Positions 24,608 through 29,608 of a stretch of 52,657 nt of DNA are shown here, one piece after another (position 1 is the stretch's first letter; the number at the start of each line of letters is the position of its first letter). The DNA is from Clostridiales bacterium. GTDB taxonomy: Bacteria; Bacillota; Clostridia; Saccharofermentanales; Saccharofermentanaceae. Below the pieces are notes generated by a model that saw only the letters and a list, made by a program, of their open reading frames with translations, was not told the DNA's origin and made no database searches. The DNA is taken from assembly GCA_017649645.1 (NCBI GenBank), contig JAGCGK010000124.1, positions 1 to 52,657 of the forward strand. The letters are read 5' to 3'. Position numbers and translations under genes: made by a program.

Positions 24608-25768
24608 TTAGATTGCAAGTTTTAATATTTCCTGAATGTCTTCAGAACCAATCGGTACATAATGTCCGACCTTGCCGTTTTTAGTTGCCCTGTCTGCCAT
24701 CACCTTAAAATCGGAATCTCCGATATTAAGCTCGGAAAGTCTTGTCTTAAGTCCGAGTTTGCGGAAGAATTCTTCCAACTTTTCCGACAGTATGAGCGCT
24801 CTTTCCTCCTCACTGAAATCGTAAGGATCTATTCCATAAACTCTGCTGGCAAGAAGGGCAAGTCGCCATGGCTTGATCTTTGCGATGTACTTTGTCCAGG
24901 CGACAAATACTACTGCCATTCCTTCACCGTGAGTTATGTTATATTGTGCTGACAGTTCATGTTCGATTCGATGTGAGCCCCAATCTGCTCTTCTTCCTGC
25001 ATCAAGGAAGTTATTATGGGATACGCTCGCAAGCCATTGGATCTCGGCTCTTGCATTTATATCACGAGGATCTTTTATAAGCCTTCTGGCATTCGCCGTA
25101 AGTGCCTTTATAGCACCCTCGATCAAGTAGTCCGTAGTATCCGAGTTCTTCTCATCCGAGAAATATCTCTCTAGAAGATGTGAAAGGACATCTGCGATTC
25201 CTACATATGTCTGATAAGCAGGAAGATTTACCGTATATCTCGGATTCATTATCGCGAACTTCGGTATTATCCTGTCATCTTCAAAACCGAGTTTCCATTC
25301 GCCATTCGAAAGGATTGCAGCGTTGGAGGTTTCCGATCCGCTTGATGCTGTTGTAGCGATTACTCCTATACCGATAACCTTTTCCGGGCTGATGCCTTTA
25401 GAGAAGAAATCCCAAACATCTCCGTCATATGGTATTCCGATAGCTACCGCTTTTGCTGTATCGATGGAACTTCCGCCTCCTACAGCCAGCACAAAATCCA
25501 CTTCGTCTTTTTTACCTTGTGCAACCAGTTGCCTAACCAGGTCGATGCTTGGATTTGGTACGACATCACCGCTCTCACTGAATTTGATGTTGAGTTCCTC
25601 GACCCCTTTTTTGATCACATCATATATTCCCAGGTCTTTTATAAACGCTCCGCTGTACACCAACAGCAAAGACTTAACATTTTGATCTTTCAGAAGGCTT
25701 ACTAAACTTTTTTCACTTCCTTCACCGAAAACGATCTTAGCCGGGTTGTAATACTCAAATCCGATCAT
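24608..25768 (-). CDS. Iron-containing alcohol dehydrogenase
   Basis: A 386-residue group III (Fe-ADH) oxidoreductase similar to butanol dehydrogenases/YqhD. It starts GFEYYNPAKIVFGEGS, has the NAD(P)-binding AVGGGSSIDTAKAVA, and TTASSGSETSNAA. Metal ligands appear in ADVLSHLLERYF (Asp/His) and in SHRIEHELSAQYNITHGEG (two His). AAGGAG lies 8 nt before the ATG. It lies 11 nt after metQ and so falls under the same Rrf2/leader control. Confidence 0.93.
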   Translation of the reverse strand: MIGFEYYNPAKIVFGEGSEKSLVSLLKDQNVKSLLLVYSGAFIKDLGIYDVIKKGVEELNIKFSESGDVVPNPSIDLVRQLVAQGKKDEVDFVLAVGGGSSIDTAKAVAIGIPYDGDVWDFFSKGISPEKVIGIGVIATTASSGSETSNAAILSNGEWKLGFEDDRIIPKFAIMNPRYTVNLPAYQTYVGIADVLSHLLERYFSDEKNSDTTDYLIEGAIKALTANARRLIKDPRDINARAEIQWLASVSHNNFLDAGRRADWGSHRIEHELSAQYNITHGEGMAVVFVAWTKYIAKIKPWRLALLASRVYGIDPYDFSEEERALILSEKLEEFFRKLGLKTRLSELNIGDSDFKVMADRATKNGKVGHYVPIGSEDIQEILKLAI

Positions 25769-25779
25769 ACTATTTCTCC

Positions 25780-26613
25780 TTAGTTAAGCGGAACTACTGC
25801 ACCGTCATAAGTGTCTTCAATGTATTTCTTTACTTCAGGTCCCTGCAAAACTTCTACCAGGATCTTAAGAGATTCATCATCTTTTTTATCAGGGCTTGTT
25901 GCAATGATATTTCCGTATGTCTGTGCTGCAAGACCATCATTTGCCTCTACTGCCAATGCCTGACTTACATGAAGTCCTCCTTCGATTGCATAGTTACCGT
26001 TAATAACAGCAATCTCAACATCCGGAAGAGAAGCTACAAGCTGCTCAGGAGCGATCTCCTTGAATTCGATGTTCTTCGGGTTATCTACTATATCTTCAAC
26101 TGTTGCATTGATACCTGCATCATCCTTAAGAGTAAGCAATCCTTCCTGCTGCAAAAGAAGAAGAGCTCTTGCTTCGTTTGTTACGTTATTAGGAACTGCA
26201 ACAAGTGCTCCGTCAGGAAGATCTTTGAGATCCTTTGTCTTACCTGCATAGATACCGAATGGTTCATAATGGATAGCACCGATGGATACCAGATCAGATC
26301 CGTTTTCCTTATTGAACTGCTCGAGATATGGTACATGCTGGAAATAGTTTGCATCTAAGCTTCCCTCAATAACTCCGGTATTAGGTGTAACTGAATCTTC
26401 AAGCTGAACGATCTCAAGTGTTATACCTTTCTCTGCAAGGATAGGCTTTGCAACTTCAAGAATCTCCGAATGAGGAGTGATGTTAGCGCCAACTTTAATT
26501 ACCTTGCTGTCTCCATCTTCTGCATTTGCCTTTTTTGAGCAAGCTGCAACTGATACTAAAAGTGTTGTAGCCAAAGCTATTGATACGATTTTTCTGATAA
26601 AATTGTTTTTCAT
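25780..26613 (-). CDS. metQ: MetQ/NlpA-family substrate-binding lipoprotein
   Basis: A 277-residue substrate-binding protein for methionine or related sulfur amino acids. The signal peptide ends in a lipobox (LLVSVAAC, Cys ~25). The NlpA fold signature is VIKVGANITPHSEIL, with EGSLDANYFQHVPYLEQFN, AVPNNVTNEARALLLLQ and the C-terminal TYDGAVVPLN. The ATG has AGGAG 10 nt upstream. It is the first gene of its own transcript, and its MetN/MetI partners are in a separate upstream operon with the same operator and leader type. Confidence 0.93.
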   Translation of the reverse strand: MKNNFIRKIVSIALATTLLVSVAACSKKANAEDGDSKVIKVGANITPHSEILEVAKPILAEKGITLEIVQLEDSVTPNTGVIEGSLDANYFQHVPYLEQFNKENGSDLVSIGAIHYEPFGIYAGKTKDLKDLPDGALVAVPNNVTNEARALLLLQQEGLLTLKDDAGINATVEDIVDNPKNIEFKEIAPEQLVASLPDVEIAVINGNYAIEGGLHVSQALAVEANDGLAAQTYGNIIATSPDKKDDESLKILVEVLQGPEVKKYIEDTYDGAVVPLN

Positions 26614-26657
26614 GATTTTGTTTCTCCTAGTCTGATAATTAATCTGTGTTTTTGGTT

Positions 26658-26691
26658 AAAAAAACCGAGGGCCTATCTATTAAGCTCCCGG
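26658..26691 (-). terminator. Attenuator terminator in the metQ leader
   Basis: Minus-strand stem CCGGGAGC / GCCCTCGG (one mismatch, one G-U), loop of 11 nt, then TTTTTTT, located between the leader peptide gene and metQ. Its 5' arm and flank (ATTGCCCGGGAG) can instead pair with CTCCCGGGCAAT inside the leader peptide gene (+ strand 26774-26793), giving mutually exclusive structures. Confidence 0.7.
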
Positions 26692-26719
26692 GCAATTGGC
26701 ATAGTGATGTTCAGTGTCT

Positions 26720-26845
26720 TCAACATCGTTCAAATTCGAGGCGTGAGGATCTTTTCTCAAACGCTCGAGCCACAATTATTGCCCGGGAGTTAAGCATTCG
26801 ACAGCACATCATTGTATCTGTTCTATAACCAATGTTCTTGGACAT
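26720..26845 (-). CDS. Putative Cys/Met leader peptide upstream of metQ (41 aa)
   Basis: The ATG at 26845 has AAAGGAG at 8 nt, as strong as any gene here, and lies about 25 nt after the predicted transcription start. The peptide begins MSKNIGYRTDTMMCCRMLN and ends in ERC. Two Met, two Cys and another Met codon lie in a row immediately before the segment that can form an antiterminator, the arrangement of classical amino-acid attenuation. A related peptide lies in the metN leader. Its function as a regulatory peptide is inference. Confidence 0.65.
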   Translation of the reverse strand: MSKNIGYRTDTMMCCRMLNSRAIIVARAFEKRSSRLEFERC

Positions 26846-26877
26846 CTTCACGTCTCCTTTCGTCGTTCATGATGTTG

Positions 26878-26905
26878 ATTATATCCCATCAACCTACTAT
26901 GTCAA
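26878..26905 (-). promoter_or_regulatory. Promoter of the metQ operon
   Basis: Minus-strand TTGACA (26905-26900) and TATAAT (26883-26878), both perfect consensus, 16-bp spacer. The -35 box lies within the Rrf2-type operator. Confidence 0.85.
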
Positions 26906-26910
26906 TAGGT
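26892..26910. promoter_or_regulatory. Putative Rrf2 operator overlapping the metQ -35 box
   Basis: ACCTATTGACATAGTAGGT (minus strand) is an inverted repeat with arms ACCTA / TAGGT. The same 19-mer with one difference occurs before metN at 29115-29133, next to the Rrf2 gene. Binding would occlude the -35 box. Confidence 0.7.
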
Positions 26911-26953
26911 GAAACAATACGGTAAATCTATAGCATGTTATAAGTAAAATTTA

Positions 26954-27154
26954 TCACTCGCGAATCTTTCTTGGTATCAACGCTATTACCAGTGCTATTA
27001 AACCAGTAACAAATAGCACTCCGGCAACTACGTAATTACGGATATATACGTTGGTAAATTCTATTCTTACGGTATATAGCGGTTTATTGTAAACTCCCGC
27101 ACTGTCATCAGCTTTTTCAATAATATCATCATAAAGTCTCCGTTTATTACTCCC
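26954..27154 (-). pseudogene. Possible 3' remnant of a membrane-protein gene
   Basis: An open frame of 66 codons between metI's terminator and the metQ promoter ends in a convincing membrane helix (VVAGVLFVTGLIALVIALIP) followed by RKIRE and TGA. It has no in-frame ATG or ribosome site; an ATG after GGAG at about 27133 is in another frame. This looks like the tail of a decayed gene or a frameshifted small gene. It could also be chance. Confidence 0.3.
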
Positions 27155-27160
27155 TCATAT

Positions 27161-27191
27161 CAAAAAGCACGGCTTACTTATGCCGTGCTTT
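27161..27191 (-). terminator. Terminator of the metNI operon
   Basis: Minus-strand stem AAGCACGGC / GCCGTGCTT (9 bp, 8-nt loop) followed by TTT(T)T, 14 nt after the metI stop. It shows that metQ is transcribed separately. Confidence 0.85.
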
Positions 27192-27204
27192 GGAAAAATA
27201 GAAC

Positions 27205-27858
27205 TTATACTTTGCGTTTTTTCTTGGCTAACAACCCGCCTATTCCTTGTATGAGCATTACCATGATCACAAGAAGTGCAACTGTTGTCCAAAGAACATC
27301 TTTTTGATAACGGTAATAACCATACTGCAGTGCTATCGCACCAAGACCGCCGCCTCCGATGACTCCTGCCATTGCCGAATATCCGAGAACGGTCGCCACG
27401 TTGATCGCAGCACCCTGTAAAAGTGATGGTGTCGCTTCAGGCAGAATGAAGTGGATGATTATATATAAAGGAGAAGCACCCATTGAATTTGCAGCTTCAA
27501 TAATACCTGGCTGCACTTCACAAAGTGATGCTTCAACCATTCTGGCAACTATAGGGATCGCTCCTACTGTCAGCGGAACGATGGAAGCAACCGTACCTAT
27601 AGAAGAACCTGTAACGAATCTTGTAAACGGGATCAGCAATACAAGGAGAATAAGAAACGGAAGAGAACGCATGATGTTTACGATCGTTCCCAAGACCAGA
27701 TTGACGATCCTGTTTTCGAGAAGACGGCCCTTGGAAGTCACATAAAGGATAACGCCGAGAGGAAGTCCGATAATATATGAAAGCAATGACGCACAGAAAG
27801 TCATCTCAAGCGTCTCTAGGATACCTTTTTGAATTATCTGAATAATATACTCACTCAT
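27205..27858 (-). CDS. metI: Methionine-type ABC transporter permease
   Basis: A 217-residue permease with five helices. It carries the MetI-type EAA loop EAANSMGASPLYIIIHFILPEA and the Gly-rich YSAMAGVIGGGGLGAIALQYGY near the C-terminus. GGAGG lies 12 nt before the ATG, and the gene overlaps metN by 8 bp. It forms the MetN2I2 importer with metN and probably uses the MetQ encoded at 25780-26613. Confidence 0.94.
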   Translation of the reverse strand: MSEYIIQIIQKGILETLEMTFCASLLSYIIGLPLGVILYVTSKGRLLENRIVNLVLGTIVNIMRSLPFLILLVLLIPFTRFVTGSSIGTVASIVPLTVGAIPIVARMVEASLCEVQPGIIEAANSMGASPLYIIIHFILPEATPSLLQGAAINVATVLGYSAMAGVIGGGGLGAIALQYGYYRYQKDVLWTTVALLVIMVMLIQGIGGLLAKKKRKV

Positions 27859-28861
27859 GATCTCTTGCTACCTCCGATACTGTAAGTCCGCTTTTCTTGA
27901 AAAAATCTATAACCACATCCTGTTCAGCTTTGTCCCTTGGAAGTTCAAGAACCATCTGGCCATAACCAATCCCTCCTACGCTTCTTGTATTGGCGCTGAG
28001 GATATTTACTTTCTTACCCGTGGTTTCCACCAGATTAGCTATAAAAGGTTCGCTTGCCTCAAGTCCGTCAAACACGATCCTTATGAGACGTCCGTCAGGA
28101 TCAGACGGATCAAAAGGATTACTCGGGAACACCAGTTTCTTAGCAGCCTCAGACTGTGGATTTCTGAATACTTCCTTCACTTCACCCACTTCAGCTAGCT
28201 TACCGTCATCTATGATGGCAACTCTGTCACAGATCTTTTCAATAACAGACATCTCATGGGTAATGATTATTATCGTGATCTTACGCTCCTCGTTTATCTT
28301 CTTGAGGAGCTCCAATATCTCCCCTGTTATCTTCGGATCCAGGGCACTTGTCGCTTCATCACAAAGAAGGACTTTAGGAGATGCAGCAAGGGCTCTTGCA
28401 ATAGCTACTCTCTGCTTTTGTCCTCCTGATAATCTGGCAGGATATGAATTCTCTTTATCCTCAAGGCCTACGACTTTCAGCATTTCACGGGCCTTTTCTT
28501 TTCGTTCTTTTCGAGAAACACCTGCAATACGAAGAGGTTGTTCAACGTTAGTTATTACTGTTCTTTGGCTAAGAAGATTGAAACCCTGAAAGATCATGGA
28601 GATCGAATGTCTTACTTCACGAAGTTCCTTAGGCTTAAGAGCCTTAAGGTCCTTGTCATAGTACTTGATACTTCCTTCGGAAATCTCCTCCAGACGGTTA
28701 AGGGTCCTAACCAAAGTGGATTTACCTGCACCGCTCATTCCAATAATGCCGAAGATCTCGCCTTCCTTTATCGAAAGGCTGACGTCTTTAAGCGCAGTGA
28801 ATTCTTTACCGTCGTTTTTGTATGTTTTATAGACATGTTCCAGTTCAAAAACATTACTCAT
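27851..28861 (-). CDS. metN: Methionine-type ABC transporter ATP-binding protein
   Basis: A 336-residue ATPase: Walker A GMSGAGKSTLVRTLNRLE, signature LSGGQKQRVAIARALA, Walker B VLLCDEATSALDP, H-loop IITHEMSVI. The C-terminal ~90 residues form the NIL domain that binds methionine for trans-inhibition in MetN (LEASEPFIANLVETTGKKVNIL). I take the ATG at 28861 (MSNVFELEHVYKTY), with AAAGGG 12 nt upstream, not the ATG at 28888, which lies against the leader hairpin. Confidence 0.94.
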   Translation of the reverse strand: MSNVFELEHVYKTYKNDGKEFTALKDVSLSIKEGEIFGIIGMSGAGKSTLVRTLNRLEEISEGSIKYYDKDLKALKPKELREVRHSISMIFQGFNLLSQRTVITNVEQPLRIAGVSRKERKEKAREMLKVVGLEDKENSYPARLSGGQKQRVAIARALAASPKVLLCDEATSALDPKITGEILELLKKINEERKITIIIITHEMSVIEKICDRVAIIDDGKLAEVGEVKEVFRNPQSEAAKKLVFPSNPFDPSDPDGRLIRIVFDGLEASEPFIANLVETTGKKVNILSANTRSVGGIGYGQMVLELPRDKAEQDVVIDFFKKSGLTVSEVARDHE

Positions 28862-28891
28862 AGAATTTATGATCCCTTTCATTTTCATTAA

Positions 28892-28930
28892 ATAGCCCGA
28901 GGCTTATTTATAAGCTCCCGGGCTATCGGC
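28892..28930 (-). promoter_or_regulatory. Conserved leader hairpin before metN
   Basis: Minus-strand ATAGCCCG / CGGGCTAT (8 bp) continues after a small internal loop into GCTTA / TAAGC. The block GCC-AT-GCCCGGGAGCTTA is shared with the metQ attenuator. Only a short U tract follows (ATTTAA), so it may act as a weak terminator or by masking the metN ribosome site. CTATAGGC inside the leader peptide gene (28996-29003) can pair with GCCGATAG at its 5' side (28923-28930). Confidence 0.6.
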
Positions 28931-28966
28931 ACAAATATTGTCTTAATTAAACAATACTCAGATAAA

Positions 28967-29062
28967 TCAAAGCGAGAAGAATGCCCGTTGTAATGGCCTA
29001 TAGTTCATATGCATTCGAATACACATATATCCGCACATGATGTTCTTCTCTGATCTTGTCAT
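28967..29062 (-). CDS. Putative Cys/Met leader peptide upstream of metN (31 aa)
   Basis: The ATG at 29062 has AAAGG at 7 nt and lies ~30 nt after the predicted transcription start. The peptide MTRSEKNIMCGYMCIRMHMN continues to RAFFSL. It shares the pattern K-N-I, M-C-x-R-M, N-x-R and R-A-F with the peptide before metQ, despite different DNA. Met and Cys codons precede the segment that pairs with the following hairpin. A regulatory role is inferred. Confidence 0.6.
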   Translation of the reverse strand: MTRSEKNIMCGYMCIRMHMNYRPLQRAFFSL

Positions 29063-29099
29063 TTGATTGCCTTTCTTTTTTGGTTTACAGGATGATGTG

Positions 29100-29128
29100 A
29101 TTATATTCATACTTACCTACTGTGTCAA
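29100..29128 (-). promoter_or_regulatory. Promoter of the metNI operon
   Basis: Minus-strand TTGACA (29128-29123) and TATAAT (29105-29100), perfect consensus with a 17-bp spacer. Confidence 0.87.
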
Positions 29129-29133
29129 TAGGT
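29115..29133. promoter_or_regulatory. Putative Rrf2 operator overlapping the metN -35 box
   Basis: ACCTATTGACACAGTAGGT on the minus strand, 18 of 19 identical to the metQ operator (26892-26910). It lies between metN and the divergent Rrf2 gene. Confidence 0.7.
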
Positions 29134-29142
29134 AATTAGTTC

Positions 29143-29177
29143 TTGATTTACCCTATTACCTTTCGGTATAATGGGTA
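29143..29177 (+). promoter_or_regulatory. Promoter and possible auto-operator of the Rrf2 gene
   Basis: TTGATT (29143-29148) and TATAAT (29167-29172), 18-bp spacer. An imperfect dyad TACCCTATTACC (29149-29160) / GGTATAATGGGTA (29165-29177) covers the spacer and -10 box, so the regulator could repress itself. Confidence 0.55.
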
Positions 29178-29200
29178 AAAACGAAAAGAGGTATAATCGT

Positions 29201-29608
29201 ATGATTTCTACAAGAGGACGCTACGCTCTAAGGGTTATGATGGACCTCGCTGAAAATGATAATGGCAGTTTTATCCCTCTTAAGGATATTGCTGAAAGGC
29301 AAGGCATCTCAAAAAAGTATCTTGAGATCATCGTTAAGGATATGGTTGCCGGTGGCCTGATAGTTGGAGCCAGCGGTAAAGGCGGCGGATATAAACTTTG
29401 TAAGAAACCCGAGAAATATAAGATCGGAGAGATCCTTGAACTTATGGAAGGTACTTTATCTTCTGTTGCCTGTTTGGCTGATAAAGATTTTACCTGCGAC
29501 AGGAGATCTCAGTGTCAGACTCTTCCGATGTGGAAGGAATACGATAAGATGGTCCACGATTTCTTCTATAAAAAGAAACTAAGCGACCTGATCCCGAAAG
29601 ATAAGTAA
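29201..29608 (+). CDS. Rrf2-family regulator with three cysteines
   Basis: A 135-residue winged-helix regulator: MISTRGRYALRVMMDLA, IPLKDIAERQGISKKYLEIIVKDM (HTH), the wing GASGKGGGYKL, and the three-cysteine segment ACLADKDFTCDRRSQC (C-x7-C-x5-C) where IscR-type members bind an Fe-S cluster. CymR-type members lack these. The ATG at 29201 follows AGAGGT; an ATG at 29171 overlaps the -10 box. It stands divergent to metN and two matching operators precede metN and metQ, so it most likely represses sulfur amino-acid import, in response to cluster or thiol status (inference). Confidence 0.9.
   Translation: MISTRGRYALRVMMDLAENDNGSFIPLKDIAERQGISKKYLEIIVKDMVAGGLIVGASGKGGGYKLCKKPEKYKIGEILELMEGTLSSVACLADKDFTCDRRSQCQTLPMWKEYDKMVHDFFYKKKLSDLIPKDK

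Follow-up and report, generated by a model that had tools for sequence, protein, structure and literature searches.

What do the two short leaders ahead of the transporter genes metQ and metN do in a Clostridiales genome of the family Saccharofermentanaceae (the NCBI taxonomy puts Saccharofermentans in Clostridia, Oscillospiraceae)? We analyzed a window of 52,657 bases, the whole stretch of DNA considered here, taken from a 200-kb contig of an assembly of 201 contigs, in which both leaders lie on the minus strand, one 5' of metQ and the other 5' of metN (Table 1). A preliminary description of this DNA had reported a short leader peptide with shared motifs in each leader, a hairpin block common to both (GCCCGGGAGCTTA), a U7 end to the metQ hairpin and complementary arms in each leader, and had proposed that both are attenuators following cysteine or methionine supply. 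The two upstream open reading frames (uORFs) and the common block are present as described, uORF1 has a GGAG Shine-Dalgarno (SD) sequence as its ribosome site, and the metQ hairpin ends in T7 (26664..26658). The comparisons below strongly favor attenuation for metQ, where the leader is very probably a cysteine-responsive, ribosome-mediated transcription attenuator as judged from sequence and modeled folds, but not for metN, whose leader is homologous yet has lost the antiterminator arm.

Conservation of the metQ leader and its reading frame

We searched the window's MetQ protein against 99 relatives, so that loci were picked by protein and not by leader. The 30 best MetQ loci (the window's included) gave 29 with upstream DNA, L006 having none. 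Every one of these 29 has a core with Cys codons, both arms (CTCCCGGG and CCCGGGAG) and a T-run. The exact core ATG TGY TGY CGA ATG occurs in 24 of them, and the five variants all retain at least one Cys codon: a single Cys in L003 and L021, TGG TGT in L018, three Cys codons in L027 and CAA for CGA in L025. The codon after the Cys codons is CGA in 28 of the 29 leaders, and the next is ATG in every one. An SD-preceded uORF start is found in 28 loci (all except L013), and the uORF ends in Arg-Cys-stop in 28. The exact core also occurs in ten more genomes whose MetQ is close, at roughly 200-280 nt 5' of a metQ start that was extrapolated from the protein match, and ATGTGYTGYCGAATG is present in 61 of 85 genus genomes.

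The reading frame itself is preserved. In an alignment of 27 of the 29 metQ leaders (A1; L013, with a different 5' end, and L029, a near copy of L019, were left out), gap runs come in multiples of three in 54 of 57 cases inside the uORF, compared with 33 of 58 after its stop. Among 100 non-redundant leaders of the wider set described below, an SD plus start lies in the frame of the core in 94; for the two alternative frames the counts are 3 and 1. Frame, SD and Cys codons together point to a translated short reading frame carrying codons for an amino acid of the pathway, and an intrinsic terminator stands ahead of the structural gene.

Pairing, covariation and predicted folds of the metQ leader

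In the window metQ leader, CTCCCGGGCAAT and ATTGCCCGGGAG are complementary as first described, over a perfect 12 nt, extended by TGGC/GCCA over a 5-nt bulge, and none of 3000 shuffles of the uORF tail reached such a complement. RNAalifold on 27 leaders returned a single antiterminator helix, 16 pairs long and interrupted by a 5-nt bulge, in which four pairs show two-sided changes (for example, CAC/GTG in some leaders and TGC/GCG in others). With 55 more diverse leaders (A3) the consensus helix has 8 pairs, one of them with two-sided changes, and the arms of L070 (CCGAACA/TGTTCGG) are altered on both sides yet still complementary. The antiterminator shares an arm with the terminator, so that the two structures are mutually exclusive in metQ-type leaders.

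We collected 166 leaders, with a terminator predicted in 148, and reduced them to 101 non-redundant sequences. Pairing of a leader's own arms averaged -27.5 kcal/mol, against -25.7 kcal/mol for swapped arms, and 76 of the 101 leaders beat the row mean; none of 10,000 permutations reached the observed mean (z -6.9, a value inflated by the relatedness of the leaders). For a control stretch, own and swapped pairings were nearly equal (-10.8 versus -10.7 kcal/mol). A covariance model (R1) built from 55 hand-chosen leaders of the 101, including the window metQ leader and excluding the metN leader, scores 124 bits (E 6e-40) at the metQ leader and also matches its opposite strand weakly (10.5 bits, E 0.016).

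We then folded each of the 101 leaders with a ribosome-sized block placed at each codon. When the last Cys codon occupies the A site, the antiterminator forms in 67 leaders, the terminator in 8 and neither structure in 26. When the ribosome stands seven to twelve codons further on (+7 to +12), the terminator forms in 84-98 of 100-101 folds and the antiterminator in 0-2. Without a ribosome, the antiterminator is predicted in 63 of 101. The window metQ leader behaves in the same way: the antiterminator keeps its 16 pairs while the ribosome occupies one or the other Cys codon, has 0 pairs at codons 22-27 and is back from codon 28. In these constrained folds, then, a ribosome at the Cys codons favors the antiterminator and one at +7 to +12 the terminator, and the outcome is mixed beyond +13.

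The distribution of cysteine beyond the core follows the same division in part. The uORF runs a median of 25 codons past the Cys codons, and after the last core Cys codon, cysteine makes up 13 of 505 residues at offsets 9-13 compared with 79 of 683 at offsets 14-20 (Fisher p 2e-9, uncorrected for relatedness); it is the last residue in 45 of the 101 leaders.

From what is directly observed in this leader (its anatomy, frame conservation, homology, pairing with covariation, and the positional logic of the folds) we infer ribosome stalling, a cysteine signal and termination in vivo, in the following scheme. RNA polymerase would start at a promoter over which a probable Rrf2 operator lies, and a ribosome would translate the leader peptide, stalling on the tandem Cys codons when Cys-tRNA is short. 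The leading edge of the stalled ribosome would lie just before CTCCCGGGC, leaving it free to pair with GCCCGGGAG; with this pairing in place the terminator could not form, and metQ would be transcribed. When cysteine is plentiful, the ribosome would advance onto CTCCCGGGC, the terminator would form and transcription would stop. With no ribosome present, the antiterminator is the predicted default.

Besides the inflated z value, several observations weigh against this scheme. The 101 leaders were selected by core motif and predicted terminator, and 18 of the 166 collected have no predicted terminator. At +2 to +6 codons neither structure forms in 63-80 of 101 folds. At +14 the antiterminator outnumbers the terminator (58 to 37 of 100 folds) and at +20 to +25 it forms in 36-48 of 95-100; since it is restored in about half of the folds past +13, termination needs a ribosome over the arm as the terminator emerges, a timing that the scheme assumes. 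Without a ribosome, 30 of 101 leaders fold into the terminator, and 17 of 101 have a Cys codon at +8, within the terminating zone. Constraint on the peptide is weak, with a nonsynonymous-to-synonymous ratio (pN/pS) of 0.61 before the core, 0.80 over the core and arm, and 0.92 in the tail. Among the metQ loci, L013 has different upstream DNA without SD, promoter or operator, and the uORF of L008 ends before the Arg-Cys. Two genus members with a more distant MetQ, G011 (63% identical) and G014 (52%), lack the exact core, and R1 likewise finds no match in G011. Finally, R1 gave 13 matches in 391 evenly drawn Clostridia genomes, 8 of them among the 11 listed genus members and only 5 in genomes outside the genus.

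Genes behind the leader and the nature of the signal

A pattern scan of an 84,980-species genome collection found at least 120 stretches, 80 of them listed with titles. Among these listed matches are Saccharofermentans, many Lachnospiraceae and one Christensenellaceae bin, and those not marked as metagenome-assembled genomes (MAGs) include Butyrivibrio proteoclasticus P6B7, Butyrivibrio sp. WCD3002 and YAB3001, and Lachnospiraceae bacterium AC2029. Prevalence is patchy, with R1 matches in 7 of 148 genomes of the family of G262 and 1 of 9 in that of G236. Counted with redundancy, the first downstream open reading frames (ORFs) fall into a cluster of Cys/Met pyridoxal-phosphate enzymes (84) and one of substrate-binding lipoproteins (39), followed by amino-acid permeases or ATPases (4), iron alcohol dehydrogenases (2), LysR-like regulators (2) and 9 singletons, some of the singletons being plainly spurious. 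Family matches above cut-off identify an O-acetylhomoserine sulfhydrylase (L224) and a cysteine synthase (L089) behind the leader; below cut-off are a glutamate-cysteine-ligase-like protein (L127), a cystathionine-gamma-lyase-like protein (L103) and a permease (L082) with matches to those for ectoine and for cystine. On another contig of the window genome, metY is preceded by a third leader.

Other arrangements also occur. An iron alcohol dehydrogenase gene (24608-25768) adjoins metQ downstream in the window; in L159 and L176, the first ORF after a Cys leader likewise belongs to this kind. On the minus strand of L099 (1061-1202), two copies of the leader core lie 127 nt apart with an N run between them. 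The ORF behind the Cys leader in L106 (2068-3819) joins an N-terminal stretch, by eye resembling an amino-acid-binding protein, to a MetQ domain at 353-579. Three of the listed matches are MAGs labeled Aeromonadales, Succinivibrionaceae and Succinivibrio (L093, L143 and L158): L093 and L143 combine the leader with metY and a divergent Rrf2 gene, and L158 has the leader with metY, metQ and a divergent metN-metI pair. These could reflect either transfer to a gammaproteobacterium or misbinned contigs, and a comparison of E. coli with 3 kb of L158 found nothing.

The range of downstream genes bears on the signal, which the preliminary description had left as Cys or Met supply. Cysteine is the best-supported signal of the metQ leader, and we regard it as possible, though the less likely case, that methionine is sensed just as much. 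Nearly all metQ leaders have an ATG before the Cys codons and another two codons after, and the metN uORFs in G011 and in two other-family genomes of the order read MCM...MCM or MMMC. Set against these, the genes behind the leader include cysK as well as the glutamate-cysteine-ligase-like and cystine-permease-like genes, it is Cys and not Met that recurs at the later permissive positions, and the frequent Met at +10 belongs to an AUGGC/GCCAU pairing.

The diverged leader upstream of metN

R1 matches the metN leader at 28.5 bits (E 1.9e-8), so that it is homologous, but the CTCCCGGGC arm is deleted in the alignment. Its hairpin is followed by UAUUUAAUG, without a U-run. The complement originally noted here is present, CTATAGGC and GCCGATAG pairing at 7 of 8 bases; however, at least one such 7-of-8 match arose in 201 of 3000 shuffles (6.7%) of the metN uORF tail, which places it near chance. 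In folds of this leader, wherever the ribosome is placed, the hairpin retains its 16 pairs and none of the 8-nt pairing proposed earlier is formed. The leader therefore shows no antiterminator mutually exclusive with a U-run terminator, and the idea that the partners differ between the two leaders yet stay complementary is not supported for the metQ/metN pair because the CTCCCGGGC arm is missing and its substitute is near chance and never folds; among other relatives, as L070 and the covarying columns illustrate, the same idea holds.

It appears unlikely that the metN leader, too, attenuates transcription by means of a substitute antiterminator. Its family homology, an intact uORF with MC and MCIRM, and the complementary bases themselves speak for it; the shuffles, the folds and the missing U-run speak against it, as does G019, which has the closest MetN found (82% identical) and whose metN has the palindrome and promoter without such a leader. 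We read the metN leader from its sequence as a decaying copy, a diverged relative that probably no longer switches.

In other genus genomes, 18 of the 20 regions fetched 5' of metN carry a second leader type (alignment A2, L064 included); L059 and L076 show no second-type leader in the DNA fetched. Where scanned (L103), the gene behind the second-type leader is the cystathionine-gamma-lyase-like one. Directly 5' of metN, 19 of 22 loci encode GDRYLSKG, which by eye looks like the CysK terminus. In G011 (L053) metN follows a Met/Cys-rich uORF of another kind, with a terminator, and the two other-family genomes (L056 and L057) also have Met/Cys-rich uORFs there; the peptides of L053, L056 and L057 read MCM...MCM, NMMMCMM and NNMMMCH, respectively, and are accompanied by hairpins and T-runs, their leader sequence being different. 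Folds of these three were not used as evidence on mechanism: in L053 the terminator is kept at all ribosome positions but one, and the cuts of L056 and L057 ended at a T-run earlier than the likely terminator.

Alternative readings of the metQ leader

Some leader peptides arrest their own ribosome in response to a small molecule, as TnaC does with tryptophan. A peptide that stalls the ribosome on free cysteine, methionine or a derivative, and not on uncharged tRNA, would account for the Arg-Met that follows the Cys codons almost without exception in the 29 metQ leaders (Gln-Met in one) and for their almost uniform Arg-Cys-stop ending. We consider this improbable. The peptide is weakly constrained, least of all in its tail, which favors codon sensing over a nascent-peptide signal; residues from the core to the end differ across families; Cys residues vary in number and spacing (MMCRM, MCCCRM, MCSMWCRM), and the uORF ends in Cys in fewer than half of the 101 leaders across families. 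Moreover, the end sequence GATGTT pairs with AACAT in several folds, so that conservation of the end may be at the RNA level. A structured or protein-binding RNA with an incidental uORF and no need of translation, which would fit the strong nucleotide conservation of core and arms and the antiterminator default, is very improbable given the frame-keeping indels, the SD and start in the frame of the core, and the lack of any Rfam match at gathering score in the window leaders or 20 loci.

Readings as a T-box, as an S-box or other SAM riboswitch, or as a riboswitch of another kind were rejected because the Rfam scans gave no such match. At gathering score the whole window yields only four tRNAs, with no T-box or SAM family; across 26600-29200, a search up to E 5 returned neither of these and only three eukaryotic families far below their cut-offs. 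In 20 relatives, the one match was a Clostridiales-1 RNA in L181, unrelated to the Cys leader of that locus, which lies about 7 kb away.

Promoter palindrome and Rrf2 regulator

The palindromes CCTATTGACATAGTAGG and CCTATTGACACAGTAGG cover the -35 boxes of both window promoters. CCTA..TAGG is found in 27 of the 29 metQ loci with upstream DNA, and one of the remaining two, L022, has CCCA..TGGG, a compensatory change of both sides; the other is L013. Across families, CCYATTGA-N5-TRGG occurs in 82 of the 97 leaders for which upstream DNA was sufficient and in none of the shuffles of the same DNA. Of 114 leaders, 24 (23 of 108 distinct sequences) have, within the 700 nt ahead of them, an Rrf2 gene whose product is 63-81% identical to that of the window, always divergent. 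We infer from this arrangement that the Rrf2 protein is the probable repressor of both window promoters, acting through the palindrome. The window protein scores 81.3 bits against the NCBIfam CymR equivalog model, whose cut-off is 195, and is also below the cut-off of the IscR model; a search of viral contigs with it confirmed no relative.

Table 1. Coordinates of the annotated features around the metQ and metN leaders
Feature	Position	Strand	Basis
CCTATTGACATAGTAGG palindrome covering metQ -35 box, probable Rrf2 operator	26893..26909	-	Comparison across metQ loci
Sigma-70 type promoter, TTGACA, 16 nt, TATAAT	26878..26905	-	Consensus reading only
uORF1, leader peptide MSKNIGYRTDTMMCCRMLNSRAIIVARAFEKRSSRLEFERC, 41 aa, MMCCRM core, C-terminal RC	26720..26845	-	Frame tests
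Conserved core ATG TGC TGT CGA ATG (Met-Cys-Cys-Arg-Met)	26795..26809	-	Alignment
Antiterminator 5' arm CTCCCGGGCAAT(aattg)TGGC	26769..26789	-	Pairing, alignment, folds
Shared arm GCCAATTGCCCGGGAG, antiterminator-arm partner or terminator start	26685..26700	-	Pairing, alignment, folds
Intrinsic terminator CCGGGAG...CCCTCGG then T7	26658..26692	-	Sequence, folds
metQ, MetQ/NlpA-family substrate-binding lipoprotein	25780..26613	-	Best family match, below curated cut-off
CCTATTGACACAGTAGG palindrome covering metN -35 box	29116..29132	-	Sequence
uORF2, leader peptide MTRSEKNIMCGYMCIRMHMNYRPLQRAFFSL, 31 aa, MC and MCIRM	28967..29062	-	ORF reading
Diverged leader copy, antiterminator arm deleted in alignment	28889..29026	-	Model R1, 28.5 bits, E 1.9e-8
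Stable hairpin 5' of metN without U-run	28892..28926	-	Sequence, folds
metN, ATP-binding cassette (ABC) ATPase	27851..28858	-	MetN best match, below curated cut-off
metI, ABC permease	27205..27858	-	Family match above cut-off
Rrf2-family regulator divergent from metN	29201..29608	+	Rrf2 superfamily above cut-off

Relation to known systems

In attenuators of the E. coli trp type, a stalled ribosome frees an antiterminator arm. The metQ leader would follow the same stalled-ribosome logic, with the differences that its predicted untranslated default is antitermination and that its uORF continues past the Cys codons. In agreement with the preliminary description, we found no described element of this kind in the part of the literature that was covered, a provisional result.

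Several systems with related features have been described. The uORFC-8-2 motif of Rhodobacterales (PMC8632094) likewise has a uORF with two tandem Cys codons and a terminator, with ribosome-mediated attenuation proposed; it is reported ahead of cysS alone, and its Cys codons lie within the first stem. The leader studied here occurs in Clostridia, before metQ, metY, cysK and others, the two window leaders preceding metQ and metN and not cysS; its uORF runs through the antiterminator arm, and it is combined with a promoter palindrome. Mycobacterial polycysteine leader ORFs (Canestrari 2020, cited in PMC13236596) are also Cys-codon leader peptides responding to cysteine, but they are leaderless according to the title and are cited as translation attenuation. 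Candidate Cys leader peptides of Mycobacterium, P. acnes and B. longum cbs (PMC1262725) share with the present leader a run of Cys codons before sulfur genes; unlike here, that study reports the run near the stop and no conserved terminator hairpin. The cysteine T-box of clostridial ubiGmccBA, cysK and cysP (PMC2940859) serves genes of the same pathway with the same logic, stopping transcription when tRNA-Cys is charged, but as described the RNA itself senses the tRNA without a leader peptide, and the window leaders have no T-box match.

For sulfur amino-acid genes of Firmicutes, T-boxes, S-boxes, LysR regulators and CymR-type repressors have been described (PMC2940859), and PMC1262725 states that no Firmicute aminoacyl-tRNA synthetase gene was then known to use classical attenuation. 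Against this background, the two layers seen at metQ may form a portable switch for cysteine, in which a conserved block of about 250 nt unites a Met-Cys-Cys attenuator with a palindromic Rrf2 operator on the -35 box. Such a block would stand ahead of various sulfur genes (those for cystathionine lyases, glutamate-cysteine ligase and cystine-type transporters as well as metQ, metY and cysK), would be common to gut and rumen Clostridia and perhaps carried into Succinivibrionaceae, and would build a regulon in a role for which T-boxes and S-boxes are otherwise known. We judge the evidence for this broader view to be evenly balanced.

If the attenuator reading is correct, a cysteine leader-peptide attenuator that recurs across gut and rumen Clostridia and matches no Rfam family would be a further class of regulation. 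Such leaders are easily missed by gene callers because their uORFs are short. The leader would also provide a sequence signature for the cysteine regulons of uncultured bacteria, and a natural set in which to study how coding and RNA-pairing constraints act on one stretch of sequence.

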